NCBI GenBank assembly: GCA_037783545.1
Contig: JBBELK010000064.1
Span: 310,001-374,000 of the forward strand
Direction of reading: 5' to 3'
Length of the DNA stretch: 64,000 nucleotides
Source: Henricia sp. BOLD:AAB3569
Lineage: Eukaryota; Echinodermata; Asteroidea; Spinulosida; Echinasteridae
Shown: piece by piece, positions 12,136-60,546 of the stretch
How the letters are laid out: every line of letters begins with the position of its first letter
How positions within the stretch are numbered: the stretch's first letter is position 1
Position numbers and translations under genes: made by a program
The notes under the pieces: generated by a model
Told to the model about the DNA's origin: nothing
What the model saw: the letters and a program-made list of their open reading frames with translations, nothing else
Database searches by the model: none

Positions 12136-13145
12136 CTTTTCACAGTATGAACGTCCGACCCGAAATCTACACGGTTCAAATCCGCTACGTTTTTACACTA
12201 CTAAACGCAACACCGGCATTTTTTCTACACGTGTTATGTTTCGACCCGTGTATCTTGCGATCGTTTCACACACACACGGCCGGCCGTCAACACGGGTCAA
12301 ATTGGAAAATCCCCCACATTGCATTGCAGCGAGTCATCTCATTCTACAAATTGTATACTCTCGTCATATATTTTTTACTAGTTTATCACGACACCCGGCA
12401 GCCATCAAATCCTCACTTATTTTACAAACACCTTGCTATTTCTGGTTGTTCCATCGAGCTGGTTTTGGATAGAATTGTCAGCCCAAATACCCAACATAGC
12501 AGCTACACTCTCAGAAATAATGGTTCAAATCTGCACCCTCACGGGTGCTTATCTTTGATATAATAGCAGCGCCCCTATAGGAGCAAATATGCACCATGTG
12601 AACATGATTTGCACCTTGAAAAGAGCGAGTCTGCACTTTAGGGGTGCACATATGTTCAAATGGTGCAAATTTACTCTCATAGGGTTGCACATTTCCTCCT
12701 ATAGGGGTGCTGCTATTGTATCAAGATAAGCACCCCAATTGCACCCTAATTTCTTAGTGTGTACCTCCTCTTCACTCCATGTCAGCCTTTTGTCTGATTT
12801 CGGACACGATTTTTCAGACATTATTGCAGAACAAAGTAAAAATGTGTACATGAATACATGCGCTTAGCACTGAATAACGCGCGAAAAAGCGAAACCCAAG
12901 CTTGTTCGTTGCAAAACAGCATTTACAACAGTGCGATGCTGCCGTGCTCCCAAATCTACACTGGTCCAAACTTAACTCAGATGCGTTCAGACTGTGGTTT
13001 TCAACACGTGTCGAACTTCTCTACAGGGGTCGAGAGTTTCAACACGAGTCGAGCGCTCTACACGGGTCAGTGCCGTGTTGAAATGATGTGGTGTGAAAAG
13101 CTAACACGTGTCGGACCCATGTACAATCCAGAGATTTTTCATGTG
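12136..13145. repeat. Iterated-motif TIR-like element (ACACGNGTC motif)
   Basis: The word ACACGGGTC/GACCCGTGT and near variants recur in both orientations at both ends (12155, 12170, 12226, 12243, 12290; then 13007, 13050, 13061, 13103). The outer flanks look weakly inverted (CTTTTCACA..GTCCGACC against GGTCCGA..TTTTCATGTGAAA reversed). A second foldback element sits in the middle. No coding potential. Confidence 0.45.
12504..12763. repeat. Nested foldback MITE
   Basis: Ends TACACTCTCAGAAAT (12504) and ATTTCTTAGTGTGTA (12749-12763) are inverted. The arms continue inward with TGCACCCT, GGTGCTTATCTTGATA and CCCCTATAGGAG in mirror order. It lies inside the ACACGNGTC element. Confidence 0.65.
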
Positions 13146-13217
13146 AAAGGGCCAGTTTATTTGAGGCATTTTTCCTCCAGTGTCAAGATGGCATACGGTG
13201 GCTTTATACTTCTCGCA

Positions 13218-13363
13218 TATAGACCGTATCGAATTAATAGCTGCCATCTTTTAGGGCAGTTTCTTTGTTCCGTGAGGGCATGCACATTTTGTGCTTACAT
13301 TGTTGACCAATTAATATGTCAAAAGTTGCCCTACAAGATGGCAGCTACTCGATACGGTCTATA
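13218..13363. repeat. TIR element, family D (complete short copy)
   Basis: Begins TATAGACCGTATCGAATTAA and ends in its complement TCGATACGGTCTATA. Inner arms AGCTGCCATCTT..AGGGCA and TGCCCTACAAGATGGCAGCT also pair. Single arms of this family occur at 38308, 40732, 43972, 60605-60651 and 62365-62412. Confidence 0.7.
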
Positions 13364-13395
13364 GCCAGTCGTTGAATTGAACAGCCATTATAATA

Positions 13396-13685
13396 TGTGA
13401 CCCGCTCTGGAAAAAGGTACTATAAGTCGCGCAGGCTAGGTCGAGTTTTCGCGACCATAAGTAGAAATCTGTGGCGGATGATCCACGCTCATAAACACAA
13501 AAACACAATGGAAATTCCAGGCGGAGCACGGACATTACATGCGGTATTTGGGAACTGCCAGTAATTTCCATTGTGTTTTTATATATTAATAAACGTGGAT
13601 CCGCCACAGATTTCTACTTGTGGTCGCGAAAACTCGACCTAGCCTGCGCGACGTATACCACCTTTTTCTAAAGCGGTTCACATGT
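13396..13685. repeat. Large foldback element, copy 1
   Basis: Two ~95-base arms are nearly identical in inverse. They start TGTGACCCGCTCTGGAAAAA and run through GTCGCGCAGGCTAGGTCGAG to AAATCTGTGGCGGAT. The spacer holds a second inverted pair (CACAATGGAAATT at 13505, AATTTCCATTGTG at 13562). A diverged second copy is at 36055-37614. Confidence 0.75.
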
Positions 13686-14212
13686 AAGTCCAGTGCACGG
13701 TATCATCTGAGATGCCAAATGGGTGTATTATAACAGAACACTATCAAATAAAGGAATTCAACACGATAAGATAGTGGAAACATTGTTTTGATTCAAACTT
13801 CGCAACTTGTGATAAAACTGTTAATAAACGTAGGTATTTACAAAAGCTTTATATTACGTCTATTTATTCCGAATTCTTCCGTCCGTTTTATTTTGAGAAA
13901 TTCCACTGCTATGAATAAAATGTACACACGAATACCAGACAATAGTTCAGGGGAATGTGAGCGACCTGTGTGCAATTATGTCACATAAAAGGGGGAGTTC
14001 CGTTTAATATGTGGCAAAGATGTCTCGGAAGTTGTTTTTTTATCTTAGTTTCAGTGCATGCCAGTTTGGATTTGTTGCATGCGCGCACGCACATATATGT
14101 TTGCAGTTTTAGTGTTAGGTCACTCTGGATTAGCAAGGTCAAAAAGTACGTGTATCACTGGAGCGACGCCGTGCAAACATCAAGTTTGGTCATATTTTTC
14201 AGAAAAGTTTGC
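13686..14212. other. Unassigned
   Basis: AT-rich, no recognisable gene or repeat end. Confidence 0.35.
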
Positions 14213-14935
14213 AGGTGTGGACAGCACATAAAACATTAGCAAACACCAGCAAACTTCACCAAACCGTGTTTGCCGATGTTTGGACATGCAGCTACGGGCA
14301 AACATTGGTAAACATATGGGTCTGTCCACAGTAATGGGGTACATTTGAAAAATAAGTCAATAATTCCTTTCAGATGTCTTTAGTTTATCTCAGAATTAAA
14401 GAAAAGTCCTTGTTTTGTTCTCAGGAGATAACTTTTGCCCAAAAAGGTAAGAAATTGCTGCCACAACATACATTTTTGAAAAGCAAGTGTACAAATTTTC
14501 CTATTAGGCCTACGTATGTAACGTGGAAAGACAATTTTGTGACATTTTTTCCGTCTTTGTTACATGCGTAATAAAAAGATTTGTGCACGATGTTTTCACA
14601 AATGTATGTTGTATGTAGGACTATTTTTCTTACTCCTTGGTGAAAAAGTTATTTGCTCAGTTTAGCTTGATAATTTAAAGATAAAATTAAGACATTTGAA
14701 GTAAACTGGGACCTAAGATCTTGAATGTTACAGAAATGTACCCCATTATACTCTGGACAGATCCATATCTGTTTGCTCGTGTTTTATGACCTTTCGGAGT
14801 ATGTTTCTGTTTGCCAATGTAGAGACACAGAAAAACATCAGCAAACATATCTGTATGGTGATGTTTACAAATAAAATGTTTGCAAGTGTTTGACATCGTC
14901 AAACACCTTGCCCAGACTGGTTCTATTACGTTCAA
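14213..14935. repeat. Iterated-motif element (GCAAACAT motif) with inner inverted arms
   Basis: GCAAACA/TGTTTGC words recur in both orientations near both ends (14208, 14239, 14248, 14267, 14298; 14770, 14808, 14840, 14877). An inner inverted pair, TCTGTCCACAGTAATGGGGT at 14322 and ACCCCATTATACTCTGGACA at 14740, bounds a central ~400 bp without the motif. Confidence 0.5.
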
Positions 14936-16825: not shown

Positions 16826-17779
16826 TTACGTCGTGTTTGGGTGTAGCCATTTCAAGAAACGCTCCATGGAGTATCCGAAAAGCCGATAATCCAAATCATA
16901 AATTTTCGATAATCTCGAAACATCTACTGGCGACAATTTTGGGAACTCCTGCCGAGCGATCGTGACTGTATCAGACGAGCCATCGGGAAACACCAAGACG
17001 CGACGGCCCTTGGCTCGATGGCTAAGGAGTCCAAGAATAGCGGCGGCATCAGGCCGCAGGGTCTCGTAGTGCCCCACGAAATCATAGCGGACAAGGCAAG
17101 GGCTACAGCGGGAGTAATAGGGTTCCCAGTGCATGTCCCGCAACAAAGGGGATGTCAGTCGCCCATTGGTGAGATAACGGACAAACTCAACAAAGCTGAC
17201 GGTCGAGATTTGGGCCGTTGCAAGCCGGTCTTTACCAACATGTCTGTGGTTTCCCGATTGGATGTTAGAGTAACTTTTAATCCTCGGCCCCCAAGAGCTC
17301 TGGTAGTCGCGACTCTGTGGTCCTACCACGAACTTGTCACGCCATCCGGAAACCAGTCTCAACATGGGTTCCCGTACGAACATGAACTTGGTGTAATCTC
17401 GAAGCCTGCTCTCGCGCTGTGGGGCCGGGTACGTGCCAAGGCGCCGCAAGCTGCTCCTCTCGACTCTGCTCACGTTTGGTGACGACACGGCGTCCAAGAC
17501 ACGGCGCCATGTTATGGACGATACTTTTCGTACCTCACAGAAGATTAACTTGTTGGCATCGTCGACCAGGAGGTGACTGGGTGGTTCCAAGGTTTTCCTC
17601 TTGTCGTGGTTCGGGAGACCATCACATGTCCGCTTCAGCACACTGGCTCGGAGGAACTGGCTCTTCCATACGTCGTACGTCTGATTGAGAATCTCTGGAT
17701 GATGGAGATACCGGTAGCTTTCGAATTCCAGGATGGCGCGGATATCGGCAAATGACCCAATGTTCCAGAACTTGAGATT
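16826..17779 (-). CDS. Carbohydrate sulfotransferase (CHST8-14/HNK-1 type), terminal exon
   Basis: 317 codons plus TAA (16828-16826). Golgi enzymes of this family move sulfate from PAPS to glycan chains. The 5'-phosphosulfate loop is CEVRKVSSITWRRVL (exon residues 81-95, family P-K-V-x-x-x-x-W-K/R-R with the lysine kept and Pro changed to Arg). The 3'-phosphate site is FVREPMLRLVSGWRDKF (134-150). Further on come DMHWEPYYSRCSPCLVRYDF and the family's end pattern IYDLDYRLFGYS. The exon is open up to a TATAG acceptor and starts at 17779 in phase 0 (NLKFWNIGSFADIRAILEFE), upstream of the first Met-like codon. The N-terminal anchor and stem must come from upstream exons. The catalytic core shows no disruption. 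The substrate glycan cannot be told from sequence. CHST10, 11-14 or the invertebrate-specific expansion are all possible. Confidence 0.88.
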   Translation of the reverse strand, partial: NLKFWNIGSFADIRAILEFESYRYLHHPEILNQTYDVWKSQFLRASVLKRTCDGLPNHDKRKTLEPPSHLLVDDANKLIFCEVRKVSSITWRRVLDAVSSPNVSRVERSSLRRLGTYPAPQRESRLRDYTKFMFVREPMLRLVSGWRDKFVVGPQSRDYQSSWGPRIKSYSNIQSGNHRHVGKDRLATAQISTVSFVEFVRYLTNGRLTSPLLRDMHWEPYYSRCSPCLVRYDFVGHYETLRPDAAAILGLLSHRAKGRRVLVFPDGSSDTVTIARQEFPKLSPVDVSRLSKIYDLDYRLFGYSMERFLKWLHPNTT

Positions 17780-19590
17780 CTATAATTATCAATTGAAAAA
17801 CAAAAACAAACAACTATAAAGCAGTACAGCTCACAAAAACAACAGCAGTGTTCGTGTCTGACTGTAGAATAACGTTATAAAATTATCTATATCAAGTACA
17901 TGTAGGCGCCCCTATTGGGAAATATCTTGTCAAATTTATTAGACGAAATTCCGTGGTTATAAATATTGTATTTAGCATGAAAATGTCTTGTTTTCTAAAA
18001 ATTGCTCTATGTTAATTAATTACATGCACTGCATTGCAAGTACATTGTAATACACTGTACACACCGGCAAATGGCAGGAGTTCAGCATAGGTAAAAGTAA
18101 AAACAAAATACAAAAGGCACGTCCCATGCTACGCGTGAAACAACGCGAGTCCTTGAAAATGACCTGACAATATCAATTGTATATCTCTTCTCTCTGACGT
18201 CACAATATCATAACAAAGTGCGCGGCAAAGCTCACACGTACACTTTGCCGTTCAGTGACAAAAACAAGCAAACAATGCGACATGATAAAACCGTCTGTAA
18301 AGGTTTGTATCACTGTCGTGCCGTCTTAGCAGTAGAGTTCACTGGGGAAAAATATTCCCACTGCGAAAGGCTGCGAGCGCTCGTTTAAATTGAGGCATTT
18401 GAATAGGGAAATAAATTAATAAGAGAAAAAAATGATAATTTTCCCGGTCTGCCGATATTTTAGTTTTCAAATACGATATCGGAAAAATGGGAAATTATGG
18501 AAGAAAATGTGCAACATATTAAACTTTGGCGGGAGGCAAAGTACTAGTACTTTAAATTGCACTCTTTAGATACCCCATTAAATAAATCTCTTTTGGTCAT
18601 GTTTTATTCAAATAGGCCTAGAAATCTTTTTTCAAGGTCGGCACAAACAATGTTTCTTAAGCATTCAAATTCAAGGTTTAATTAGCACGAGAATTAACAC
18701 ACTGTCACGAATTTAACGGGTGTTCATTTGAGTACTCCACAAGAGGTTCCGTATTGAAATTGTGGATCTCAGCAAACTGTGCGGCCGTTTCATACATGTA
18801 CAAGTGTGCATGCGTATATACACGTAGGTACAAGTAACAAGACATACACTAGTCGTTGGTATTGTATGTTAGGTCGATATATAAAAAGGTGCCTGCGCTT
18901 GATGGTACTTGTGCTCCCAATTGTCATTGCTGTGAAGGACGGCTTAACGGACCCTAACCAAGAAAATATCGGTAAAACATATTTCCGAAGGGAAACAAAT
19001 AAGGCAGTTGGAGTTTTTCTGATAGACAGAGCCCTCAACTCGTCATCACTGAAATCGTTTATAACGGCAGTCTGGGGTTTTGTACGAGGAATGGGACTTT
19101 GTGTTCAGCAGCGTTTACGGGACAACTGCTCATCGGTGTGCATGACTTGTGCGTGCATGGTGTCATCTTCTCTTCTGACCGGAGCACGCGGAGAGTTCTC
19201 ACACATCGTGTAGGAGCACACATTACACCATCCACAGTCCTACATTCCGTTCTGACCGTTGGCCGTGTTTAGGGAAAACCATCACCTCTGGTTTTCAGCC
19301 GTGTCTGGTTACGGTGAGTTTTTGAAGTTTAGGACAAATAAAATGGGATTTTAAAGTTGTTAACACTATCCGAATAACGAAACAAAATTGACTTTAATTT
19401 GTAAATTATTGTACCGTTTGCTTTTTTCCCTACATATCGCAAGATTATACTTAAACTAGGTAGAGTACAATGATTGGTAAACTGTTACAAAGGGCATTAT
19501 TTCCACTCGTGATTAAAAGCTCATGTTGATAAAACTGCCGTGTAGAAATTTCAGCCACATAAATGCACATATCAGTTGTTCCCCCACCCC
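17780..19590 (-). other. Probable sulfotransferase intron; no supported exon
   Basis: AT-rich DNA upstream of the terminal exon. A 144-codon plus-strand frame (18779-19213) has one hydrophobic stretch (LMVLVLPIVIAV) but no known domain. No middle exon of the sulfotransferase was identified. Confidence 0.4.
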
Positions 19591-19591
19591 C

Positions 19592-19839
19592 GGGCTGCCA
19601 CACCCTTTAGGTGGGGATTTGGTCACGATTTTCATGCCCCAGGGTGGGGACTTTGACACATAGAAATCTAATTTTCAGTGCACCTGGGGGGGGGGGGGGG
19701 GGGAACATGCGTATTTTTCCGCCAGGGGTGGGGATTTTGTCACCCAAATTGTGCCCCAGGGGTGGGGATTTTGTCACGCAAAAGGTGGCAATCCCCACCT
19801 CTTAGGTGGGGCAGCCCTGGGGGGGGGGGGGGGGGGGGG
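19592..19839. repeat. Poly-G-containing repeat, family E copy 1
   Basis: Inverted ends GGCTGCCACACC..AGGTGGGGATT and AATCCCCACCT..GGTGGGGCAGCC enclose repeated GTGGGGATTTTGTCAC words. Two G runs interrupt it: 18 G at 19686-19703 and 21 G at 19819-19839. Other copies are at 40930-41025 and 55996-56217. Confidence 0.6.
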
Positions 19840-20309
19840 TGCAATTGATAGGTGCATAATACTTCAGAAAACATGGCTTCGTGGCTTTTGTGTTACGTTG
19901 AATTGTAAAAACGTCTTTTGCAAAGGACTTTTTAGAAAACCACCTTCAGTTGTTAATTTCTCACACAAAATAGGCCTACCAGGGTAGAGGTGTGCGTGCA
20001 TACCAGGTTTCCCATCGCAATATAATTGTTTCTATGTACTGTGTTAGGGGTTCAATTTCACAAGAAGCTTCATATATGGTTTCTTAGGTCCATATGTATG
20101 ATTTAATCATGGATCTTTCCATCTAAGTATATAACTTTTTTTTGTGAAACTAAATCCATACTATATTTCGTTCGTTTGTACACCCGTGTTATAGCACGAA
20201 CATTCCTTTGAGCTCAAACAATCAAGCGCATAACACGCAGCGCTGGTTTACTCACATACTCCTCGTCTGCATGGCGAATACCATTACTGTTTAAATAGAA
20301 CTATGTGGA
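19840..20309. other. Unassigned
   Basis: No gene or repeat boundary recognised in this intronic stretch. Confidence 0.35.
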
Positions 20310-20361: not shown

Positions 20362-20925
20362 TTAAACAGCTAGAATCCCCCCTTCCACATTTTTTTTGTT
20401 TTTCTGTTGATCATGGAGGTGTATGTGTCTACAACACCATCACAACTTGTTTTTCACAAAAAAATCGACAGGCTTTTGCTTAAAACGTAAAGCAGTTCCG
20501 ACCCTCTTTACCAGAAATTCTGAAACGCTCGAGGTCACTTGGTTTGTTTATCAACAGGGTTTTGACGTCAGAAACATACAAAACGGTCTGTGCAGTATTG
20601 AATGGAAAATACACGAAGTGAATGTTTATCATGCCTGTTTTGTCCTTGTAATTCAAAATACAAACGTGAAAAACACTTCATGTAATATGACAGCAATCTA
20701 TATACCCGTTTTGTGAAAACGGTGAAATTGTGGCTCACAATTAAGCTCTTTTGAAGTAAATACTGGTGCATTGCGACGGGTGGTTTTGTCACAGAACGAA
20801 CGGCATTCACAGCGGTCTGTGTATAGCATGGAACGGTTCCCTGCGGGCATCGGCCGGTACAAGTTAGAATGAGCGACTCATTTTTTTCTCTCTTGGTAAT
20901 AGAAAAGAAAATCTTTCTGCTCTCT
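20362..20925 (-). mobile_element. THAP-like repeat family, copy 1
   Basis: A ~560-bp sequence present in the opposite orientation at about 57235-57777 (shared blocks include GTGTATGTGTCTACAACACC reversed, GTGACCTCGAG, ACATGAAGTGTTTTTCACG, CAGACCGCTGTGAATGCCG). The minus frame is open but broken by differences between the copies. See the fuller copy for the possible THAP start. Confidence 0.6.
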
Positions 20926-20930
20926 TTAAT

Positions 20931-21056
20931 TTCCAATTATTAGGTACGATTTGGTACGATTGTGTATAGAGTCTATAGACAGTCCCTGGTAATCTCACCA
21001 AATCGTACCTAACCGTTGGAAATTCGTGGCAAAAATCGCACAGTGGGAGGCCCGCT
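20931..21056. repeat. Hairpin MITE family L, copy with truncated left arm
   Basis: The right arm ends GTGGGAGGCCCGC and carries ACCAAATCGTACCTAA. The left arm keeps only the inner TTAGGTACGATTTGGTACG. The full-length copy is 44921-45079. It joins the end of the THAP-like repeat directly. Confidence 0.65.
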
Positions 21057-21775
21057 TTAGACAACCGCTAACGAAGATCGAATGAAGCTGTGCGACGCCC
21101 CATCTCTTTTACGTGTCAAATCGCTTCGTCAAACGAAGGAGGGAGCGTTCACTTTAGAAATTTGCTTCGTCGAACGAAGCCATCTCTTCGTCGAATGAAG
21201 CTGAAGAATGAGTTAAAGACTAGAAACTTCAGAGACAATCATGCTTGCAAGTGCGATGCGTTTGGACCATGTCGATTGATGCGGGGTTCAAGTGTTTTTA
21301 TACCAAATCCAACGGCGCATTACGGAAGCAGCAAATTTAAACTGTGAAAACAACGACTGATGGAAGGGGCGTAAACAGCCGATACAAAAGGGCGACTGCA
21401 GCAAAATGAAAAAAAGAGGTATATAAATACATGTATGCCGAACACATCGTGGAAACGTATAGGCCTATTTGACGTTCCTTAAAATCAAATAGCCAAAGGC
21501 TATACCAAAAGAAGTTACAGTTTTCAGATTTTTATTGGCAGGATAATTTACATGAAAACTCGCCTGATGTTGGCTAAATGCAATATCGAGCCAAGTTTAC
21601 TCCATAAGGTCATTTAGATGAGGTTTATTTGTCGACGAAATAGTTCCAGTTTGCCGACTTTTCCTGTATTAAATTAGTTTGTCAAACGGACTTCGCAACA
21701 CGATCATGTTATGTCAGCAAGATATATTCGTTAATTAGATATACATGTGATTTGATGCTGTAAAAGTACATTCAG

Positions 21776-46700: not shown

Positions 46701-49700
46701 TTGAAAATCTTACCTTTTTAGACTATAGATGGGTTTTATATACAAAAATACATACATTTCAAATCACGTAGTGCGTGGTTATACAACGTAAAACTTAAAA
46801 CAATGCAATTTTTCGTGAAATCTACGGAAAAATAATCTCCGCGCGATCTGCTTTGTTAACAACGTTTTCGGAATGTTCTTAGAACGTTACACTGCAACGT
46901 TATATTCAAACTTCCACAAAACGTCCCCTCGACGTTCAAAACGAACGTGACCAAAAACGAACATTCTCCGAACGTTATTAAATAACGTTCTGAGAATGTT
47001 CGTTTTTTAGAACGTTAAAGTGCAACGTTAGATTTAAACGTTGGCACAACGTCCCCTCGACGTTCAAAACGAACGTAACGTCCACGAACGTTGTTAGCTG
47101 GGAAGTTTGTCAAGGGTTTTTCCCGATTAAACCTGCATGTGGTGAGCTGACGTGCCTGAATAGCGCGTCTCAAAAACAGCCCTAGAAGTGCAGGTTATTG
47201 GGGAGGCAATTCTGGCAGAGTGGTGCACCCTGCCTTAGCGGCTCGTAGCCTCGTGCGGTGGTTGATGCAGCCAGCCTTGCCACAGGAGGGGATCATGATA
47301 TGCACATTACTGCCCAATAAAAGAAGCTGACATCAGCACTTAGATTAGAGGAAGTTATTGTCTCTACCCCTCCCATGCCTGTACGTGTAATTATGACCGC
47401 CATTTTGAGTTTGTGCATGGCTTTTATTATTTGTCGAAGGTTGCATTAAAATTGTGTGGATACATTAAAATTGTGTGGCCCTAACAACCCTAGGGTGGAC
47501 ATTTAAATAAATGTTCTACTCCAAATATTAAAGAAGTTAAAGCCATTTTAGCGATTTTCAAGGTCAATGGTGGCCATATTGGAATTGACTCAGATTTTAC
47601 CCATTTCCGGTTGCTAGATTTTGGTAGACTTTTATCCTACCATCCTCCACATTCAGTAGAACCAGAAACCGTTGACAAATCTTTTGTTATCATTTTTGGG
47701 AGGTTAGGGTACTTTTTCCATAACTATACATGTATATACAATACATTCTTTACAATTAGCGGCCATTTTTTAACGTCAGATTTGATCACTTTCCCGTGCT
47801 CCGTTTCTGTCCAACTTTTGATATGTTGTTCAGCATACTTGAAAGTACAGGAAATTGCAATAAAACAATTTGTTGCAATTTTTTTGAGGTTGAGGTATTT
47901 TTTGTGCTATATTGACCCGCCTACTAGGCAAACGTTTGAATGATGACCCTGGACCTTTGCATTTGCCATGTCGCAAACCGACGTTTACAGTGAGTGATCC
48001 TCGACTGCTGCAGGTCCGTTTCAGCGAAAATTTTGTAATGTTGTGCAAATGAATTGAGTCTGATTTTTTTCCCTATAATTTCCAACTTGTCATTTAGGAC
48101 TCATTCCGAGCATATGGAAACATTATTGTATCATACCAATATTCATAAGAAATTAATCATTATCCTGTAATAATGATTTGCGACCTATTGCATTAACCTC
48201 GATTGTTATGAAAATCTATGAGCGTATTGTTCTAAATGTTTTTGGATCCAATGCAATTAGCCTATTGGAAAGGTAAAAGTTGTGAAGACGCCCAATGGTT
48301 GTTTTCGATAAATTGTATTCTATTCTAGCGAAAGTCAAGTCAGGTCATAGTGCAAGAATTATGTTCTTTGATTTTCCCTCGGCCTTCAACACTATTCAAC
48401 CTTATGTTTTAGTACATAAACTTTTAGTTGACTGTAACGTTTCTAAATCATTCCTTTGTTGGATTTTAAATTATTTGACAAATCGTATACTCAGTACGTG
48501 AGGATTGTCTCAACTAATACAGTGTCTGATACTATTCGGTGAAGTACAGGTGTTCCGCAGGGCACTGTACTCGCTCCGTTTTTATTTTCGCTGTATACAT
48601 CAGACTGCCTTGCTAGAGCCCCTTTGTTCCAGTCAAGTTTGCAGATGACACGGTGTTGATTGGTCTTATAAAAAATTACAACGATACAGAGTACAAGCGC
48701 GAGCTTGAACGCTTTGTGCAATATTGTGAGGAAATGTTTTTTAATTTGAATGTGAACACCTAAAACGCACGGACTGTATATCTTTAAATCACGCATGTAG
48801 CGGCGTAGCCAAGGAGGCGTGGGGGACCAACGTATGAAGACCATCATTAGCCGTTTTGCGTGTAACCTTTGCACTATGGCTGGCGCCCCGAATGACTCAC
48901 TTTCAAATAAAGGTGCGGTTTAGAAATTCCACATGCTATGATGTTGTTACTACGTGGTGCACGCCAATGCGAAGCAGCAAACAGTCTGGTTGCTTTATGC
49001 CATTCTCTACAACCGTGAATACGGTTGATTCTGTATTCGACTTGTGCACCTGCCGCGTCACATTACCTAGCAACACAAATTTAGTCCGGTCATTTGGATA
49101 CTAAGTGTGCTTACATGTGAAAGAAAATACATCAGTATCAGACGCTGCATGATCATGTAAAACACGCAAAAGGCTAAATTGCTATGGAGTCGTTCTCTGT
49201 CGTCGCATTTTGAACAGAAAGAGCAATGTAATAAATGGAACACCGTGTGGTGTGATCAATTTTTCCAATGTGGGGATTATTTTCGCGAAAAAACAAATTA
49301 TAAACTAACGTGCTTGGGTGTTTCACCACTGTGCTTTATAGGGTTTTATAGGCAAACCAAGATTTTTAAACGCTTTGCGTGGACCATTTATGGCTATCCG
49401 CCACCCCACATAGGATAATTCGACCGCTACTGACGTAGTGGTCCCACCAAAACTCCTAATTGTCTTGTTTCACGGACAACGGAGGTACTTAGGACAAGAT
49501 GGACGTAAATGGTGCATAAACCGTAACACAGCTCGAACTCTAGCAAAATGATTTCTCCGAAAAACAATAACAACATCCAGAAATAGCTGTCTTTAATAGC
49601 TAGGAATTTGGGGAAATATAAATAGTTTACAATGACTTTACATAAACAATATACCGAAATAGAAAGTCAATGTTTTGGAACTTATCTTGCGTCAGTGGAT

Positions 49701-52700
49701 GGGGTTGCAGACCGAATACCAGGTAAGAGTAAAGTCTAAACATTCTTAGTTTTGCAGGATTGCCCGATACATGTATACAATGTTCACGTATAGATCGTTT
49801 GGATTACATTAGACTCTTGAGATACGTTTTCCTGCACTCAAATCACCCGCGAAAACATAAAGTTAGAGCCCCAATTCATGATTTGAAGTTACCCAAATTT
49901 TACTTCACGAGTTGACAAGAAAAAAAACGACTAAGAGTGTTGACAGCAATTAAAGGCAGAGGCTCGTCAGCAATGCACGCGCGCCAAATTCGTGCCACGA
50001 AATACGCAGCTCCATGCCTTTGCTTTGGAGCTGCGTATTTCGTTGCACGAATTTGGCGCGCGCGCATTGCTGACGAGCCAGTGCCTTTAATGGGGGATAT
50101 TACCAACTGAAAGTGTTTTTTTAAAGGTGTCCGCAGACAATTTGTGACCATTCATTCATTTACACAAATAACAAGCCTTGGGTTTTTTTCCCCAGGTTTT
50201 CTGAACTATTACTGCATCTACGTGGCTGAAATTTCTACAAGGCAGTTTTACGAGAGGAAATATCGTTGTTTTTAACAGTTTACCAATCATGTAGTACTCT
50301 ATCTTTTTGGTATACCTTAAATTCATTTCTTCAATGATGACCATCGTTATAAATAAAATTGGTAGAAATTTAACTGGAAATGATAAAAACAAGAAATAGA
50401 AAACTTTCAGCTTCTCTACGACCGCACATTTAATTCCAATAGTAAGTATAATCGACCAGAATTTGGCTGTTCGCCAAAGTTGTTGAGGTAAGTTGGGCTT
50501 TACTGAAGACATTGAGTAATTTGAGCCGCCAGTACCGCGCGCTTCGTAAACAAGCCGCAGTGTGCAAAACAAAAACGTATACGACTGTCCAACACCAGGT
50601 GTATGCATGGGGACGACAACTTCCGAGCTTCTGCAAATATGACTACATTATGGTCAAGAAGGAAAAATACACGTACAGACCCTACTTTTGTAAGGCGTCA
50701 AAGCAATGATTCTGATGAACAAAAATGCTCATACGAGTTGTGCCTTTACAATTGACGTGCTGTTGTCACACCTTAATTATCTAGTGTATATCTATTGACC
50801 ATTTTTTTTCCTTTGCAAGCAGGAATCATGGATCTTCAGGTATTAAAACTCGTCCAGCAGGAAGTACCAGAGAACCCAATTCACTGTATCGGGATTGAAC
50901 CTAACCCAGATGAGTTGGCAAGGTACAAGAAATCAGCAGCTGCAAATCCAGAATTCACACGGGACGGAACAACCTTCGAATGGCACGAGAAGATTACTGA
51001 GGATTTTGAGGTAAATTGGCCAATATTATTTTGAAATTAACAAATTTACTCATCTGCTGTCTCGCGATGTGGTCAGCTTAGACACTGCGACGTTTCGACC
51101 GCGAATCTACAGGTATTCATCAGGCGATGAAGATTTAAAATGGTTTTTAATACGTCATGGTTTGTCTAAATGCGCGCAACATTTCTATGTGGGTAATTCC
51201 CCAAATTAGGGGTCCAAAACATTTGGTGTCCCAGTTATGATCACAAATGCTCAGTAATAGACTGTGGCCTGGGATTATAGGGGACAGCACCAATTTCTTG
51301 AATATTTTGTTCTGTGATTACTGACCAATATATGAAACAAAAGACCACAAAGGCTCATAATTTGTTCCATTATATTGAATAGGAATTTGGTACGTCGTCC
51401 TTTCAAGAAGGTTTGACGGACATTTTGTCTCCGTAAATCCCCGTTGACAGTATGTTTGCTGATATCTTTTTTAATAGTTAACCCATATATCATTAAAGTT
51501 GCACTGTCCGATTTCAGGCCGATTTGAGCGTCATTTTGGGGTTTTTTAAAGTTAAATTGCTATTTTTATAGAATGGAAAAAGTTATCAGCTTTCATTTGG
51601 TACCAAAAACGTAAACATTCGTCAAGGATTAATGCCAGTCGATTAAAAACAAGAAATAATAAAAGACAGTCCCTGTCTTTTATTCGACAGGGTTATGACG
51701 TAAATGTACATGTGCGCGCACATGTGTACACTGTACATATGAGCGTACGCGCACATGCACAACATGTGAAGCCCGTTTCAAGAAAAATGCTTGTACATCT
51801 CCAATTCCCGACGTCGAATTATATTTTTCGTTACAGAGACACGTAAGCTTTCTAAATTCGTTCGCTTGTGTAAATTATTTGTTTAATCCTTTCACCCAAA
51901 CACGGACAGTGCAACTTTAAGAGATAGGCAAACCGTGAAAAAAAGATATCAAATTTTATTCGCATTCGTTTTTACGTTGACAACGTTTTTACTATTTGAG
52001 CACCGCTCGGCCTGGCCTGCAACGAGGACATTACCTTTTTAATGTATGGCGGAACAAAAGGAGATTCTTTTGTAAGATTGCTAAAAACTTGATTTATCTA
52101 TTGTAATTACGTTGAAGAGACGCAATCGTAAATAAGATCAATGCATAGTTCCGAGATTGCCCAGTTAACCCCGCCCCTTAGATACTGTTGCTATGTGCTC
52201 ACAAGCCATCGCAAAAAAATGGCGACACAACGTACAAAGCAACGGGACTCGGCATGGAAAGCACAGATTCATTGGAGAAAACTCAAAGGTATTTATGTTT
52301 TAGGGTCGACAGTTACCGTAGAACACAATGAGCAAAGGGCTAGTAATGCAGGGATGACATATATTCATAAAAAAATGCGCTTTCCTACCGTTGAACAGCG
52401 AATTGCCCGACATTGAAACCAAAATTCACCCGGTCACTGGCACATACAACATAACATACAAACTGTATGGGCAGAACATCGCGTGATTGTTTGTGATGAT
52501 TGCATCACTTTGACCTATGTGGGCGCCGTCTGCTAGCTCTGTTGTGATTGGTCGGCGGGTTCGGCTTGATTGACAGGTCGGAACTATGCATTGAAACTAA
52601 AGTGCGCCCTCCTATTGTGCTGCCATACCTTAACGGTCAATCCTATTTATTGACGCGCCAACTATGCGCGTTTTATGTGTCAGAAACAGACATACATGTA

Positions 52701-55274
52701 AAACTGCATCGCTTCGATACTCATTGTCTCATTTTAATGCTTTAAATTATTATGTTTTGTCTTAGAAACTGTTACAAGACCGCCCAGACACGAGGTATCA
52801 CGTGGTCCACATGTTCCAAATGCTGTACCATGTACACGATATGGAGGAGACCATTCGGAATTATCACACGAAGTTGACAGAGGGCGGGCTTATGGTCATC
52901 ACTATTGCCTCAAAAGGTATAGATCTTCCGTCATCTTTTCTAAAATATGAAGAAAACAATATTAAGAAAGTCAGTGACAACCCACCTAAAGGCACAGGCT
53001 CGTCAATGCGCGCGTGAGGCCAAATTCGTGCCACGAAATACGCAGCTCTATGCCTTTGCAAAATTTCTGAACTTACTCTGCGTGTGTCTGCGATCACCTG
53101 CGTGGTTGTTGCGTTCTTCAAACCTATAAAACCTATTAGTTGCGTGTGAGTTGCGTTCGGAACTTATGACCACTATTTTGTATTCGCAACCATACGCAAC
53201 TGGTGATCGCTATGGTGTGAGGGCACCATTAAGGCGTGTCCCAACAGTCGTTAGCGTATACACCAATCCGAGAGCTGAGGACTCCTTTTCTTTATATCCG
53301 CCATAGCCGAGGGCTTCCACTAAATGAACTGTATGTTTTTTTTGCTATTGCTGAAGTTGCATTTTGTTAAGGCCCTGTCACACCTTGACGTTTTAGCCAG
53401 CGTATGCTGACGTATGAAAAATATGGCGAATACGCTGGCGTACGTCGAATAAGTTATGGGTAAGTTTTGTAAAAGTTAAGAGCACGCTGAAATACGCTGG
53501 TATACGTCGTAGTATAAGGCGAGGTCGTCGAAAAATTGTGTGCATGCACAACAATTTTCGGCGTATGCCAGCGTGTGGCTCATATAAGTCCCGCATAAGT
53601 TGCAGGTAAGTAATACGATCGTTGACACACGTTCACACGTTACTTGTAAGTTACTCATAAGTCGAAATACGTTGAGATAATGTCTAGCGTACCCAAAACT
53701 TATTTCTAACCTATATGAGTAACGTGCTTTGAACCTATGTCGAACTTATCTCCAACGCATATTGAGGTATGTAGACGTATTTGACGTGTTCCGTACGACC
53801 ACATAATTTACTGAACGTGTTTCTAACTTACAGCTACCGTGTAATGGCGTATTGGCAGCGTTTAGGGGAATTGGTATATACAAATGGGGTTCACAGGAGG
53901 AACCCGTCAGTACTCCTCAAGACTCCATGGTCTAGTGCGGTTATGAATTGAATCGTCGAGCGGCAGCCTTTTTATAGGCTACGACACGTGATCGTCGGCG
54001 ATACGCTGTTGTTGTTGTTGTTGTATATTTTATGGCATCTTCGGCAACTAAGGCCCTTTATGCCATCAACTATACGGTTTTAGCTTTAACTATACTATAT
54101 TATCAACTTGAGATGACGAAGAAGAAGTTGCAGTTTTAGAAGTGGGAGGAAAACCCCCAGAGAAAGCCCCAGGGGAAAACCCACGCGGTCAAGTAGGGAC
54201 TGCAAACCCAATCCACATACACGCCCCGGATTCGAACCCGGGACCCCAGAGGTGAAAGGCGAGGAAAGAACCCGTACGCCAACCCGACCGCCCTGGCGAT
54301 ACGCTGCCGCCCGCTATGCATAAGTTATACTATCGTTGGGCATAAGTTGTGAACGCCGGCATGCACGCTAAGCATTCGTTGGTATTCGTTGGTATAAGTT
54401 ATCTAAACGTTATGAAAACGTTCTATGTAAGTTACTACTACGGTATGTATACGTCCAACTCGTTATGAATACGCTTTGTATACGCTCAAAATTGAAAAAA
54501 AAACATCGATAGTTCAGCGTATGCCAGCGTTTTATAGAAATTTTCATACGTCAGCATACGCTGGCTAAAACGTCAAGATGTGACAGGGCCTTAACATACA
54601 GCAATACAAAACGCACAGTCCATGCACTGGAAGCCCCAGCTTTGGCGAATATACAGGGAAGGAGACCTATAGTAACAGGATTGGTCACAGAGTCATTTCA
54701 AGTATTGGTTGGCAAATATTCATTGGTATTGTATATTCAATTTATATGTAATTATTTTATAATCAATAAATACGCAAAGCGATGCACACCGAAACTTTCC
54801 TCATTTTCGTATTGAGTCGAGTGTAAAAACAAAATCTGCATGGCTTTCTCCTAACATTCTGCAGACGGAAACGACCTCCTCAAGGCCTTCCAGGACTACG
54901 AAGCCACCATCCCCAACCTGCAAACTCTTCCAGCCCAGAACTTGAAGCGTTACAGCGATGACATCATCCCGATCCTGCAGCGTCACGGCATCCCCTACCA
55001 CATGGAGACCGTCACGTATCAAGTAGACGTCTCCGAGTGCTTCAAAGATCCCTCGCTGTGTGGTAAGATGCTACTGGATTTCATTTGCCTGACCAATGCC
55101 ACGCGTGTCTACCAGAGCATTGCAGAGAACGACCGCAGCACACTCCTCAACAGCCTAAGCAAATACTCTCAGTCCAGTGAGGACGGTCAGCGAAAGCTCA
55201 CGCTGACTTTCGACTGCATCACTTTATACAAGGGCCAGCTGGAACGCAACGGCACAACCAACGACATCCTGTAA
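40523..55274 (+). CDS. HNMT: Histamine N-methyltransferase-like gene (4 coding exons, intact)
   Basis: Joined exons 40523-40703, 50823-51010, 52766-52916 and 54865-55274 give 309 residues plus TAA; human HNMT has 292. HNMT is a cytosolic SAM-dependent methyltransferase that inactivates histamine by ring N-methylation. SAM motif I is VIGVGSGKGIMDL (residues 53-65, split by intron 1). The acidic ribose-binding position is E86 in GIEPN. VHMFQMLYHVHD (137-148) matches human IHMIQMLYYVKD. All introns are GT-AG with phases 1, 0, 1. There are no stops or frameshifts. By hand alignment the histamine-contact Asn283 of the human enzyme is Leu here and Trp183 is not kept, while the Gln143/Tyr146 equivalents are kept, so the substrate may not be histamine. 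In-frame stop TAG at 40490-40492 makes ATG 40523 the start. Confidence 0.93.
40732..40795. repeat. Family D arm at the start of intron 1
   Basis: TATAGACCGTATAAAAAACA followed by GCTGCCATCTTGTAGGGCAG and TTTCTTTGTTCC, the left arm of the 13218-13363 element. No partner arm is nearby. Confidence 0.6.
40930..41025. repeat. Family E copy 2 (short)
   Basis: CTGCCCTACACCTTAATAGG to CTCACCTCTTGTGCGGGGTAG, with GTGGGGAT and ATGCCCCAGGATGGGGATTT inside. No long G run here. Confidence 0.6.
41026..41423. other. Unassigned intron 1 DNA
   Basis: No exon or repeat boundary. GGTACCTGA/AGTACCTGA words repeat at 41295-41360. Confidence 0.35.
41424..41500 (-). mobile_element. LINE 3' tail with (ATGA)n
   Basis: A (CATT)n microsatellite at 41424-41458 is followed by TATGGTTTATTTATACAACA. 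Read on the minus strand this is a LINE-type 3' end (..TATAAATAAACCATACATGA then repeated ATGA). The body is not recognisable beyond about 41500. Confidence 0.5.
41650..43228 (+). mobile_element. LINE (L2/CR1-type) reverse transcriptase, 5'-truncated
   Basis: A frame from about 41654 encodes PTWLIKANVHALAPFL, LKNYRPISNIPFLSKLIEKV, MLDLSAAFDTIDH, FGVPQGSVIGPLLF and the catalytic YADDIQIY (RT motifs 1-5). A frameshift near 42418, a TAA at 42486-42488 and at least one more frameshift near 42590-42710 interrupt it. The thumb and C-terminal part continues to ALRSGIWN. The 3' end (AAGCGCTATATAAATGC then (TTA)n at 43199-43228) is L2-like. The endonuclease domain is missing. It lies in HNMT intron 1, in the gene's sense orientation. 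Confidence 0.88.
43229..44207. other. Unassigned intron 1 DNA with a family D arm
   Basis: TACAAGATGGCAGCTGTTCG at 43972 is a lone family D arm. GACTGGTTCCCGTCCACATA at 43393 matches 35875. No exon seen. Confidence 0.4.
44921..45079. repeat. Hairpin MITE family L, full copy, inside the LINE
   Basis: Ends GCGGGCCTCCCA and TGGGAGGCCCGC. The ~60-base arms pair (TGCGATTTTTGCCACGAATT, AACGATTTGG). It splits the LINE frame between ..SFSNNKA and SKPW... The second copy is at 20931-21056. Confidence 0.8.
46233..46432. repeat. GGGCTGGGCTGG low-complexity tract
   Basis: Irregular repeats of GGGCTGG/GATGGC words. The Pro/Gln-rich minus frame across it is a by-product. Confidence 0.75.
46433..47104. 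repeat. Iterated-motif TIR element (AGAACGTT motif), nested
   Basis: Ends CCAGCTAACCAAATAACGT and ACGTTGTTAGCTGG are inverted. AACGTTC/GAACGTT occurs more than fifteen times, clustered at 46448-46470 and 46860-47095. The middle is unique AT-rich DNA. Fourth level of nesting in this intron. Confidence 0.6.
48849..49176. repeat. TIR element, family J copy 2
   Basis: Ends AGCCGTTTTGCGTGT and ACACGCAAAAGGCT. The body is colinear with 39306-39621 and inverted with 63111-63426. Confidence 0.75.
49177..49949. other. Unassigned intron 1 DNA
   Basis: No exon, gene or repeat boundary recognised. Confidence 0.4.
49954..50086. mobile_element. TTAA-flanked 133-bp palindrome, family I
   Basis: TTAA flanks at 49950-49953 and 50087-50090. 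Ends AGGCAGAGGCTCGTCAGC and GCTGACGAGCCAGTGCCT. The two halves pair almost perfectly through GCGCGCCAAATTCGTG and AAATACGCAGCTCCA to a tiny loop. A half copy is at 52985-53062. Confidence 0.8.
50091..50822. other. End of intron 1
   Basis: No repeat recognised. It ends in a pyrimidine tract and acceptor TTTTTTTCCTTTGCAAGCAG (AG at 50821-50822). Confidence 0.6.
50823..51010 (+). CDS. HNMT: HNMT-like exon 2 (residues 61-123)
   Basis: The first two bases complete Gly61 across the intron. Encodes IMDLQVLKLVQQEV, then HCIGIEPNPDELARYK and FEWHEKITEDFE, the second half of SAM motif I and motif II of HNMT. Ends GAG|GTAAAT in phase 0. Confidence 0.93.
51085..51135 (-). other. Penelope/hammerhead-like signature
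   Basis: The minus strand reads CGCCTGATGA..19 bases..CGAAACGTCGC, the CUGAUGA and GAAAC boxes of a hammerhead ribozyme core at plausible spacing with a weak stem II (ACC/GGT). Such 'CTGATGA..CGAAACGT' strings are common in Penelope-like element ends. No reverse transcriptase is nearby. Confidence 0.25.
51497..51916. mobile_element. TTAA-flanked element, family H copy 1
   Basis: TTAA at 51493-51496 and 51917-51920. Ends AGTTGCACTGTCCG and CGGACAGTGCAACT. The interior includes an alternating purine-pyrimidine run (51708-51770) with TGTACATG and GCGCGC palindromes. Copy 2 (inverted) is at 60895-61342. It lies in HNMT intron 2. Confidence 0.85.
51921..52765. other. Rest of intron 2
   Basis: No repeat boundary or extra exon recognised. 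Acceptor TTTTGTCTTAG at 52755-52765. Confidence 0.5.
52766..52916 (+). CDS. HNMT: HNMT-like exon 3 (residues 124-174)
   Basis: KLLQDRPDTRYHVVHMFQML followed by YHVHDMEETIRNYHTKLTEG and GLMVITIASK, equivalent to the human 'HMIQMLYYVKD..LL..' segment that lines the SAM and substrate pockets. Donor AAAAG|GTATAG, phase 1. Confidence 0.93.
52985..53062. repeat. Half copy of the family I palindrome
   Basis: TAAAGGCACAGGCTCGTCA through CCAAATTCGTGCCACGAAAT to CTCTATGCCTTTGC. The right half is absent. Confidence 0.65.
53371..54590. mobile_element. TTAA-flanked iterated-motif element (ACGTATGC/GCGTAT motif), family Q
   Basis: TTAA at 53367-53370 and 54591-54594. The inverted ends (GGCCCTGTCACACCTTGACG.. 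at 53371) pair over ~50 bases with the right end. Between them are dozens of loose words (ACGCTGGCGTACGTCG, AAGTTATGGGTAAGTT, TACGTCGTAGTATAAG) built on ACG/CGT and TAAGTT. A SINE is nested at 53998-54296. It lies in HNMT intron 3. Confidence 0.7.
53998..54296 (-). mobile_element. tRNA-derived SINE (family S), near full length
   Basis: Minus strand: a tRNA-like head (GGCGGTCGGGTTGGCGTACG), B box GGGTTCGAATCC at 54230-54241, the GGTTTTCC.CTGGGG..TTTTCCTCCCA block, GATGGCATAAAGGGCC, ATGCCATAAAAT and a (CAA)n tail at 54005-54025. Fragments of the family are at 23577-24072 and 62155-62285. Confidence 0.75.
54595..54864. other. End of intron 3
   Basis: Unique AT-rich DNA up to acceptor TTCTGCAG at 54857-54864. 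Confidence 0.6.
54865..55274 (+). CDS. HNMT: HNMT-like exon 4 (residues 174-309 and stop)
   Basis: DGNDLLKAFQDYEATIPNLQ, RYSDDIIPILQRHGIPYHME, YQVDVSECFKDPSLCGKMLL and DFICLTN match the human 'SDDLTQML..L..KYECYDLLSTMDISDCF' and 'DFLTETCNFNAT' order. GC-rich and strongly coding compared with its surroundings. TAA at 55272-55274. Confidence 0.94.
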
Positions 55275-57777: not shown

Positions 57778-58709
57778 GTTGTATTAACAAACTAGGAACC
57801 TTTAATATTTAGTGTTTTTTCTTTAATTAAATGCCTCACACTGTCATCTTTGGAAACCGAAGACCTTTGTTGCGCGGTAATGTGTTTTCACAGATGCGCA
57901 TCACATGCTTTCCCAAAAGCCCTCGATTGTCAAACGTTCGAAGGAATTATAATAAATCCGATTTCAAAATGTAATTTCGTTGTTCAATATTCAGATTGAC
58001 AGTTGTGATTTAAATAGAAACTTCCCTCCGAAATTTCAACCTCAAAATCCTCAGCATTATGAATTAAAAATTTTGTTGTATGTTTGATTTAACGATTTGA
58101 CAAAGTGTGAATTGTGGCGAATATGATGACGTTATTTACAAAAAGAAATCAATATATTTCGAGGCCAGCGTTCATCGGAGTGCCATTTGCAATGAGATAT
58201 TAAAACTAGACAGTCCATAAAAACTAGACAATTCCATTGTATATAAATTGATTTATATCATTTGGTTTCCTTATCGTATGGTTTCTTTATTGCTTTCACA
58301 TTTTATTTCATTTTAGTAAGTGGTTTAGTGATTTCGAGTTTTGTTATTTCTATTAGTTTAGATTTACATTTATCTATAATCGTGTATAATAAACATGGGT
58401 GTATACTAGTCTCATTCAACGGAACCGTGCAGAGAGCACACGACCGCTTTCTTATATAGAGGAAGTCATATCGTGTCATGTTCCTAGCACCACCGCCCGC
58501 GGTTCTACGGGGTGTCCTAGAAAAAACCGATATTAAATTGCTACTTACTAGGTAATTACTGAGAATTTTGGAAAAGGGCAATTGCTATCCGTTTCATCAC
58601 CGTGTCCTTTTTCCTATGGCACCAAGAAGTCCAGAGTACCTTCATGAATGACTGAGCATGGATGGTTCAAAGCGACCCTGTCAGAAACTAACTTTGTACC
58701 AGATTATGA
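57778..58709. other. Unassigned
   Basis: AT-rich, no recognised gene or repeat end. Confidence 0.35.
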
Positions 58710-58746
58710 ATAGCCGCCATTTCGTAGGGCACCTTTTGTTCCTTAA

Positions 58747-59533
58747 TACCCCCGTCGACACAACGGAGGCGCGGTGCCACTGCGGTGCTTGTACGGCATA
58801 AACCGCAGTGGCACCGCCATGATCGTCGTGGTTCCGCCATTGATCGCCGTAGCACCGCGGAAAACTGTCAAAACCGCGGACTGTACCTTCGCGGTGGCAC
58901 GGCGGAAACTTTGAACATGTTCAAAACTTCCGCAGTGCTACCGCGAGTTGGGCCAATCCGCAGTGGGATCGCTGCGGCACCGCCATGACCGCCGTGGGAC
59001 TTTACAAGGACCGCAGTAGCACCTCCATCACCGCCGTGCCTCCGCAGTACAACCGCCGTGCAATCGCCGAAAAAGTAGACTGGCGACCCTATAGGGCGAT
59101 CCCGTGGCGGTTCTACTGCGGTTATGGCGGTGCTACCACGGTAGCACTGCGGGTATGGGGGTGCCACTGCGGAGCCAGGAAGGAATTTTAGAAAATTTGG
59201 CGATCTTACTGCGGTGCCACTGCGTTCCTACGGCGGTGCCGGCGGTGTTATTGAGGCGCTTGTACGGCAATGGCGTTTCCACTGAGGTTGCACTGAGGTG
59301 CTTGCACGGTGCTACTGCGGGCATATTTTGTAGTATAAAAGCTTCGGTTTTCTGCTTCAATTTCAGTGTTCTAAAAGTCTTCAAACAGTTCAGATCGGCA
59401 GTAGCACCGCGAAGAAAAACACATGTGTGACGGGTAGGGGAAAACTATGAAAAACTACTGGCGGTGTCACTACGTTGATGGCGGTTTTGACCAAAAACCG
59501 TAGTGGCACCGCGCCTCCGGTGTGACGAGGGTA
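58747..59533. repeat. Iterated-motif TIR element X (GCGGTGCCACTGCGG)
   Basis: Inverted ends of about 35 bp: TACCCCCGTCGACACAACGG left, GTGTGACGAGGGTA right, both meeting GGAGGCGCGGTGCCACT. Inside, CCGCAGTGGCACCGCCATGA-type words recur roughly twenty-five times in both orientations. GC-rich against AT-rich surroundings. The three-base phasing opens several long but meaningless frames. Confidence 0.75.
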
Positions 59534-59535
59534 TT

Positions 59536-60546
59536 AGGCTGGCTCACATAGTAGGGGCGATAACCCGCGAAAGGCGACGGACGTGAAAATCACACAATTT
59601 TGGCGGCAAAACGACGGCAAAAGGGGAAAAGCAAGATTCGCTGACGGGTGGGAACGACCTTCAGCGACAACACGACGGCAAGGGACGAATGGCTGCGGCA
59701 GGGAACGGAGTCTAGCGACCAAAATCGGACGTTGTCTGGGCGGCGAGTGACGATGTCTCGACGGAGCCCGGCAACAAGGAACGAGGTCAGACGGCTGGCA
59801 GCGGATTGGCTGGGGGCAAGGAACGGCGGCTGACGGTGGGTTGCAGCGACGATGACGTGACTCAGCGGCCGACATCAAAGCCTGTGTGTGTGCGGGTCGT
59901 ATAAATTTCCTCGACTTTGGCGTTCCCACTCTTCACAGTCTATTGAAATCGAACTGACGTCAAAAAACGTCAAAAATCGCACAAAAAGTTTAAAATCGTG
60001 GACCATCGTTTCAAAATCGTAACCCATCGCAGACCACCGTTGCAATGCCGCAGGTACTCGCAAACGACCCGCCATCAACAGTCATCACCCGTCACCCTCC
60101 GGACAAAATTCGCAAGCCATTGTCGCACCAAGGTCGTTACAATTTCGTTACTTGCCGCAATGTGTCGTCAGGGTTCGAGATGTGACGTCACTTGCCGTTG
60201 TTTTGTCGTCAATGGTCGTTGACAACGACTACCAACGAAATTGTGACGACCTCAAAACGACTAGAGACGGCCTCGCACGGCATGGAAACGTCAAGGAAAT
60301 GAGGGTTGCGGTCTCCAACGAAATCTGAACGGAATCACAACGAATTTGTTGCCGCCACAAAATGTTCAACATGCTGAAAATTTGCCGACGGACGCGACTG
60401 ATAATTTCGGCCGTCTGCGGTCGCTAGCGGATTCGTCAGCGACAATTGAAGGCAACACACGATGATTGGCGGGAAATTCAAAATTGCAATTCGCAGCTTA
60501 ACGTAGCTTGCGGTACCCCCCTATTCGTCATAGTGTGAGCCAGCCT
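59536..60546. repeat. Iterated-motif TIR element Y (ACGACGGC / CGACAACGAC)
   Basis: Inverted ends AGGCTGGCTCACATAG and CATAGTGTGAGCCAGCCT. The body repeats GCGACAACACGACGGCAAGG-like words, then GGTCGTTGACAACGACTACC, with CGAC/GTCG as the core. CpG-rich. Open frames across it are by-products. Confidence 0.7.

Follow-up and report, generated by a model that had tools for sequence, protein, structure and literature searches.

Miniature inverted-repeat transposable elements (MITEs) are short and non-coding, with terminal inverted repeats and a target duplication. Among DNA transposons, hAT elements such as Ac and Hermes carry subterminal motifs and leave an 8-bp target site duplication, piggyBac elements combine a TTAA target with CC-type termini, Tc1/mariner elements duplicate a TA target, and Foldback (FB) elements have a 10/20/31-bp unit hierarchy. 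Here these systems are compared with eight motif-rich elements in a 64,000-base stretch of sea star DNA (Henricia sp. BOLD:AAB3569, contig JBBELK010000064.1, positions 310,001 to 374,000; hereafter the window, G+C 41%), which alone served for the analysis of the elements. Each of the eight is rich in a short word of its own, and in three of them, associated with TTAA targets, the copies of this word are spaced in step with the DNA helix. We estimate at slightly below one half the probability that these are non-autonomous MITE-like DNA transposons carrying same-face arrays of predicted transposase or helper protein sites.

In Galileo (P superfamily, Drosophila), which has long repetitive termini, the THAP domain binds one proximal and two repeat-borne sites, and the relevant part of the same paper treats as untested any role of the Foldback and Phantom tandem repeats as binding sites (PMC3688188). 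In Drosophila Foldback, repeats of 27-31 bp form blocks that run in opposite directions; the repeats are highly alike and the target duplications are 9 bp long (PMC7642927). The Herves hAT transposase binds the short subterminal motif CG/AATTCAT (PMC3143072). Kolobok and the T2 MITEs use a TTAA target and have termini of the form 5'-RR ... YY-3' (PMC6004289, PMC9587614), and the CMITE elements of corals are TTAA-flanked MITEs with a conserved interior left unexplained in the pertinent part of their description (PMC2872659).

Private motifs and helical phasing

Elements are referred to below by their first position in the window. The three TTAA elements are as follows.

53371-54590, unstranded: element A, TTAA on both flanks, inverted repeat GGCCCTGTCACA(C/T)..TTGACGTTTTAGCCAGCGTATGC, motif CAGCGTAT / AACNTAT, periods 10.3-10.8 bp
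58747-59533, unstranded: element B, flanks TTAA on the left and TTAG on the right, motif GCGGTGSCACTGCGG, phase 10.45 bp up to 300 bp
59536-60546, unstranded: element C, abutting element B, inverted repeat AGGCTGGCTCACA, motif CGR / GACGGCAA, phase 10.4 bp

The five remaining elements (12136, 14213, 26268, 36360 and 46433) are described in the last section. Enrichment was assessed by scoring the count of every word present with a Poisson statistic, for which a first-order Markov model supplied the expectation, and keeping the maximum, which was compared with dinucleotide shuffles of the same DNA (60 for each element and 12 for each of 51 control tiles) at two settings, 8-mers with one mismatch and 11-mers with two. 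At either word size every one of the eight elements scored higher than all 60 of its shuffles (5.4-19.2 for 8-mers), which confirms, with composition and the choice of the best word corrected for, that each is rich in its own repeated word. The control tiles had a median 8-mer score of 3.9, and seven of the 51 lay above the weakest element, 59536. Their own best shuffle was surpassed by more than 1 in 5/51 tiles with 8-mers and 8/51 with 11-mers; the tiles passing include those of a 460-bp tandem repeat at 8-10 kb and those holding the sequence 34911-35595. A simpler best-word count was replaced by this score because AT-rich words dominate it and mask 36360 and 26268. Both outcomes are retained here: with 8-mers six of the eight elements passed the crude count, 26268 (its value reached by 94/100 shuffles) and 36360 (9/100) failing, and five of the 51 control tiles scoring above all 40 of their shuffles. 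An excess of a repeated word over shuffled sequence stands for all eight elements under the corrected test and for six under the crude one.

The motifs named in the original prediction showed a clear excess in most elements when counted as such. CGACGAC, named for 59536-60546, was wrong: it has no exact copy there, and its nine one-mismatch sites compare with 5.1 in shuffles and were reached by 11 of 200; the words actually enriched are GACGGCAA/GACGTCAA, that is, phased CGR. ACGTATGC, named for 53371, has no exact copy either and 13 copies with one mismatch, the best-scoring word being CAGCGTAT. The further claim that the motifs are private was borne out by counting 12 words across 12 regions, every word being densest in its home region; the words having come from those same regions, this demonstrates a lack of sharing and not enrichment. 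The assertion that the elements contain no transposase is upheld in so far as no transposase domain was found with Pfam in the 26 scanned of 28 open reading frames (ORFs) of at least 120 amino acids. Private motif arrays without a detected transposase are supported for all eight elements.

The spacing of the motif copies was analysed by calling sites on both strands by expectation-maximisation, which gave 6 to 33 loose short cores per element, and comparing their distances with those of randomly placed sites. Among same-strand pairs no more than 70 bp apart, phasing at 10.5 bp was reached in 0 of 2000 placements both in 53371 (41 pairs) and in 58747 (71 pairs), and the value for 59536 (27 pairs) was p = 0.0005. 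All eight elements pooled (220 pairs, mainly from 58747, 53371 and 46433) had a best period of 10.4 bp (0/2000). Since the spacings are multiples of approximately 10.45 bp, the helical repeat of DNA, the distances demonstrate that the motif copies of the TTAA elements would face one side of the helix. A motif-free test by word autocorrelation, applied to the elements and the 51 control tiles, gave z values at 10.5 bp of 8.0 for 53371, 19.1 for 58747, 9.6 for 59536 and 2.6 for 36360. Three of the 51 control tiles had z > 4: one contains the 30.8-kb tandem terminal array, one holds most of 34911-35595 and the third, 19001-20000, has no explanation. When periods of 6.5-18 bp were scanned in 637 windows, 41 had z > 6 and the best period was 10.2-10.9 bp in 28 of these, or at 10 of 18 loci after merging.

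Long-range coherence, like the unlike-flank results and the opposite-strand results at 15-130 bp given below, covers four of the eight elements. At 10.45 bp and distances of 131-300 bp it was strong in 58747 (0/400) and weak in 59536 (p 0.035 and 0.015), and in 36360 it was confined to 41-80 bp (p 0.022). In 59536 the trinucleotide CGR alone gave a cosine sum of 75.9 against -3.6 (SD 7.7) in 300 shuffles, and one stretch can be read as units of 10, 11, 11, 10 and 10 bases. Tests on the core of 58747 gave no signal for GTGSCAC (4 pairs), a mean cosine of 0.54 against a null maximum of 0.49 (n = 300) for [AG]GTGS[CT] (19 pairs), and a non-significant 0.09 against 0.15 for a mixed-strand pattern; strand-specific words listed with these tests surpassed the null maximum in 8/8 cases, TGCGG narrowly (5.9 vs 5.8).

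The surroundings of these elements point to past mobility. The marks of mobility in 53371, 58747, 59536 and 36360 are supported because all four are sited inside other repeats at what appear to be TTAA or TA-type targets. Elements 58747-59533 and 59536-60546 adjoin, their three junctions reading TTAA, TTAG and TTAA, and the outer flanks of the pair match one dispersed repeat in opposite orientations; no uninterrupted copy across the insertion point was found in the window. The flanks of 53371-54590 themselves form inverted repeats and are read as a probable palindromic host repeat; alternatively, the whole may be a single longer element whose outer arms have degraded. The ends of 58747 are TACCCCCGTCGACAC on the left and TACCCTCGTCACAC on the right (reverse strand), and 59536 is flanked by TTA on the left and TTAA on the right and has a 13-bp perfect inverted repeat. 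A core (G/C)TCACA is common to the ends of the TTAA elements (GGCCCTGTCACAC, TACCCTCGTCACAC at the right of 58747, whose left end reads GTCGACAC, and AGGCTGGCTCACA), and a further end of this type lies at 53.2 kb (TGGTGCCCTCACACC); AGGCTGGCTCACAC belongs, with GGCCCTGTCACAC, TACCCTCGTCACAC and TATAGGTTTTCCCG, to the element ends. Together with the ends that 36360 shares with 34911-35595, this contradicts the initial view of elements alike in architecture and without any shared sequence.

Duplication, maintained phase and alternative readings

We propose that each word may be a site for the DNA-binding domain of the transposase or helper protein that mobilises the family, and that many protomers may dock next to one another at intervals of one or two turns, cooperating with each other and in finding and pairing the element ends. 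The arrays would lengthen and shorten through duplication of one-turn or two-turn units, while selection acting through transposition would preserve the core and the phase and leave the spacers to drift. Different binding domains in different families would give unrelated motifs within a similar architecture.

The strongest rival, unlikely though by no means negligible, treats the arrays as minisatellite-like by-products that are neutral. Units of 10, 21 or 31 bp would be duplicated within inverted repeats by slippage or unequal exchange and would then decay; the inverted symmetry would yield both orientations, and the helical period would stem from the mode of duplication and not from binding. 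Duplication of this kind does take place in the window. Of the 23 rows of a tandem-repeat scan, some of them overlapping, 15 repeat every 19-22 bp, close to two turns of the helix. Two other repeats vary between their copies by entire units, 10 bp (by eye) in one and 21 and 43 bp in the other, so that duplication accounts for some of the regular spacing. Spacer identities, which together with the column profiles and the opposite-strand test up to 70 bp cover seven of the eight elements, are also somewhat higher for near than for far pairs in 53371 (0.34/0.28), 59536 (0.33/0.25) and 14213 (0.36/0.30), and clearly so in 12136 (0.47/0.29).

According to the same profiles, most of the information lies in a short core, which measures about 7-12 bp and is longer in 58747, and the far spacers are close to random (0.25-0.32 identical against 0.25-0.28; near spacers 0.21-0.47), yet the phase persists where the flanks are unlike. 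Among same-strand pairs, those with a flank identity of 30% or less were phased in 53371 (39 pairs), 58747 (63) and 59536 (28), each at 0/1000, the value for 36360 (15 pairs) being p = 0.056. Opposite-strand pairs at 15-130 bp showed phasing in 58747 (p 0.0005) and in 59536 (p 0.004), with a Fisher value over four elements of 0.0001; at 15-70 bp the values were 0.076 for 58747, 0.030 for 59536, 0.040 for 53371 and 0.074 for 36360 (Fisher 0.002), and up to 70 bp the values for the seven elements ranged from 0.006 to 0.62. Small indels should, moreover, have destroyed the phase of old neutral units. Our conclusion is that the arrays are fed by unit duplication, while something preserves the phase and the core once the spacers have drifted. 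Because the 10.45-bp phasing persists in unlike-flank pairs and, in 58747 and 59536, in opposite-strand pairs, the putative role of the motif as a transposase site gains indirect support from the three TTAA elements.

A number of observations weigh against the reading of the arrays as transposase or helper sites. Phasing of same-strand pairs at 10.5 bp was absent from 12136, 14213 and 26268, reached only p = 0.03 in 36360, and in 46433 had p = 0.0055 with a best period of 12.8 bp. The same-strand coherence of 53371 is gone beyond 130 bp, and its opposite-strand pairs at 15-130 bp are not significantly phased (p 0.12), nor are those of 36360 (p 0.55). Outside the elements the genome has a mild 10.5-bp tendency of its own (z > 2 in 11 of 51 control tiles), and the whole-unit differences between copies of the two other repeats noted above belong here as well. 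The lack of a transposase domain in the scan, which left ORFs shorter than 120 amino acids unscanned, is a further point of this kind, as is the fact that the arrays fill element bodies, beyond what end recognition needs. Both these excess sites and the four of eight elements in which 10.45-bp phasing is lacking count against a single rule for all.

In a second alternative, which we hold to be improbable, the arrays would serve to bind a host protein or to organise chromatin through rotational nucleosome positioning or intrinsic curvature, so aiding survival or escape from silencing and not transposition directly. Such a role would be served equally well by a period near 10.4-10.5 bp that holds for 100 to 300 bases, and the mild tendency of the control tiles agrees with it, whereas a private specific word for each element is not required by effects that are general with respect to sequence. 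A third alternative, which we regard as highly improbable, is that a motif-hunting eye grouped two or three kinds of sequence that have no connection with each other, such as ordinary MITEs, decayed palindromes and a tandem array. In its favour, no ends were verified for 12136 and 14213, the array of 26268 is weak, the period of 46433 is a different one and seven control tiles outscore 59536 with 8-mers. Against it, all eight elements pass the corrected test, whereas with 8-mers 46 of 51 tiles surpass their shuffles by 1 at most, if at all, and the three TTAA elements have both ends and phasing in common.

The pattern is real and unusual and is partly as first described, the phasing being an added feature. 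The single class originally proposed holds as regards the private arrays (8/8); it is not uniform, because three of the eight elements are unphased, 46433 has its 12.8-bp period, 36360 is weakly phased and two elements are without verified termini. If the arrays are indeed transposase or helper sites, the interiors of MITEs would be selected docking tracks and not junk, and the private word would help to pick out the matching transposase. The farther-reaching version, in which transposon bodies would be helically phased docking tracks with about one core per turn, a private word co-evolved with the binding domain of the transposase and a multimer coating one face, is in our judgement rather unlikely.

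Relation to known transposons

The elements resemble Galileo in having long internally repetitive termini with sites that, in Galileo, the transposase binds, and differ in that Galileo has few sites in long tandem repeats, whereas here 6-33 loose short cores run through the element and are phased in three cases. With Foldback they have in common short repeat units in inverted arrays, but neither the near-random far spacers (0.25-0.32 against 0.25-0.28) nor the TTAA or TA-type targets fit membership in Foldback or MULE-F. A short motif, subterminal and bound by the transposase in hAT elements, is the point of likeness to that superfamily; here the motifs run through whole elements, and no 8-bp duplication was seen by eye at the flanks of 53371, 58747 and 59536.

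The likeness to Kolobok lies in the TTAA target and in the purine-purine termini of 53371 (GG..CC) and 59536 (AG..CT). The terminal bases of 58747, TA..TA, break the terminus rule, and Kolobok has a DDE transposase with a THAP domain, whereas no transposase domain was found here in the ORFs scanned; for these two reasons the TTAA group is not filed under Kolobok. A candidate assignment to piggyBac was rejected, the termini being GG, TA and AG. The pertinent parts of PMC6004289 and PMC9587614 mention no phased arrays. The CMITEs are likewise TTAA-flanked MITEs, but are about 100 bp long, with CCC-type ends in most of the families listed and one interior common between families, as the relevant part of PMC2872659 describes them. 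As to the features of MITEs in general, 53371 and 36360 have them, 58747 and 59536 largely so, and 26268 has the inverted repeats only; they were not shown for 12136, 14213 and 46433.

No account of helical phasing in such elements was found in the open-access literature, where phasing itself was searched lightly, Repbase and most subscription papers lying outside the scope. A literature search with the end sequence of 53371 and the AACGTT words returned nothing relevant, and the exact end patterns of 53371 had no matches in viral_contigs and genome_contigs, collections poorly suited to a eukaryote element, so that copy number is not informed by this result. Since phased private arrays predict the site, the spacing and the geometry of the bound protein, the question of binding sites raised for Foldback and Phantom becomes testable from sequence.

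Other elements and repeats in the window

The remaining elements and arrays are the following.

36360-37588, unstranded: element F, inverted repeat (TA)TAGGTTTTCC(C/T)GGCCAATTT, TA-type target, motif CATTCAANTT, weak 10.2-10.3 bp periodicity
36055-36357, unstranded: palindromic MITE broken by element F, with an uninterrupted relative at 13395-13683
34911-35595, unstranded: second element with F-like ends, TATAGGTTTTCCCG, and a different word, TTCGTCTT / GAGACGAAATC, best period 10.6
46433-47104, unstranded: element E, ends CAGCTAAC, motif AACGTT, best period 12.8 bp, within a long inverted repeat
26268-27490, unstranded: element H, 29-bp perfect inverted repeat, the weakest array (6-8 sites), no phasing seen
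14213-14935, unstranded: diffusely palindromic element, copies of GCAAACAT often 10 bp apart, best period 9.8-9.9 and not 10.5
12136-13145, unstranded: array of GACCCGTGT / ACACGGGTC, in part a tandem of 18-19 bp, including the palindromic repeat 12543-12735
39976-40170, unstranded: TTGCGTCG array, the word picked by eye, spacing about 10-11 bp, termini not found
53040-53232, unstranded: TGCGT(G/T)T array, the word picked by eye, minus-strand end TTAA followed by TGGTGCCCTCACACC, left end not resolved

The inverted ends originally ascribed to all eight elements were recovered in 26268, 53371, 58747, 36360 and 59536; 46433 has only CAGCTAAC, and 12136-13145 and 14213-14935 have no verified terminal repeat at these limits. 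The sole candidate for 12136-13145, a 9-bp CTTTTCACA match found by eye and without target duplication, was rejected. In 36360 the motif CATTCAANTT is mainly in the plus orientation in the left part and mainly in the minus orientation in the right. As to a TA target of the Tc1/mariner type, the flanks of 36360 and 34911 read TA followed by TAGG and CCTA followed by TA, or TATA, and comparison with the MITE at 13395 cannot tell TA from TATA. Ends are evidently common within families while the motifs differ.

The AACGTT count of 46433 is raised by an internal duplication and a palindrome. Four patterns of AACGTT cores each gave a best period of 12.8-13.0 and no 10.5-bp signal, and an opposite-strand value of p = 0.006 at 10.5 bp was discounted because the motif is palindromic. 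The enclosing inverted repeat, 45381-47960, has arms of about 840 bp, and a GGGCTGG-rich zone lies beside the element at 46180-46432, the locus 46201-46600 having a best period of 10.6. The array of 26268 is partly owed to one 49-bp direct duplication, and a poly-G run near 39976-40170 may raise the periodicity score of that stretch.

An element of 3.5 kb at 27493-30963 has inverted ends of about 200 bp (93% alike) that contain 21-22 bp tandem units; an extra copy of its end lies at 26125-26262, and its period in the autocorrelation scan was 10.8. Two copies of a small palindromic repeat with CACTGTGCGATTTTTGCCACGAAT ends, at 44917-45080 and 20928-21059, differ by one 10-bp unit (by eye) and contain AATCGTACCT-like units one turn apart. 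Periods near 10.4-10.6 bp were seen at 19001-20000, which is unexplained, and at 20801-21300, which holds the second of these copies. The tandem repeat of 460 bp extends over 8279-10099 and is rich in ACCGAGCA words. A TTAA-flanked palindromic MITE at 49949-50091, with ends AGGCA.AGGCTCGTCA / AGGCACTGGCTCGTCA, has a partial relative at 52987-53059. For 52777-52917 the PDB gave a weak match to a designed protein, with 0 stretches passing, on which no reading is based. Fitting an animal genome, the ORFs of the window include a sulfotransferase (16826-17779) and a reverse transcriptase (41642-42484), and an exon at 54855-55274 is weakly similar to histamine N-methyltransferase (E 0.011).

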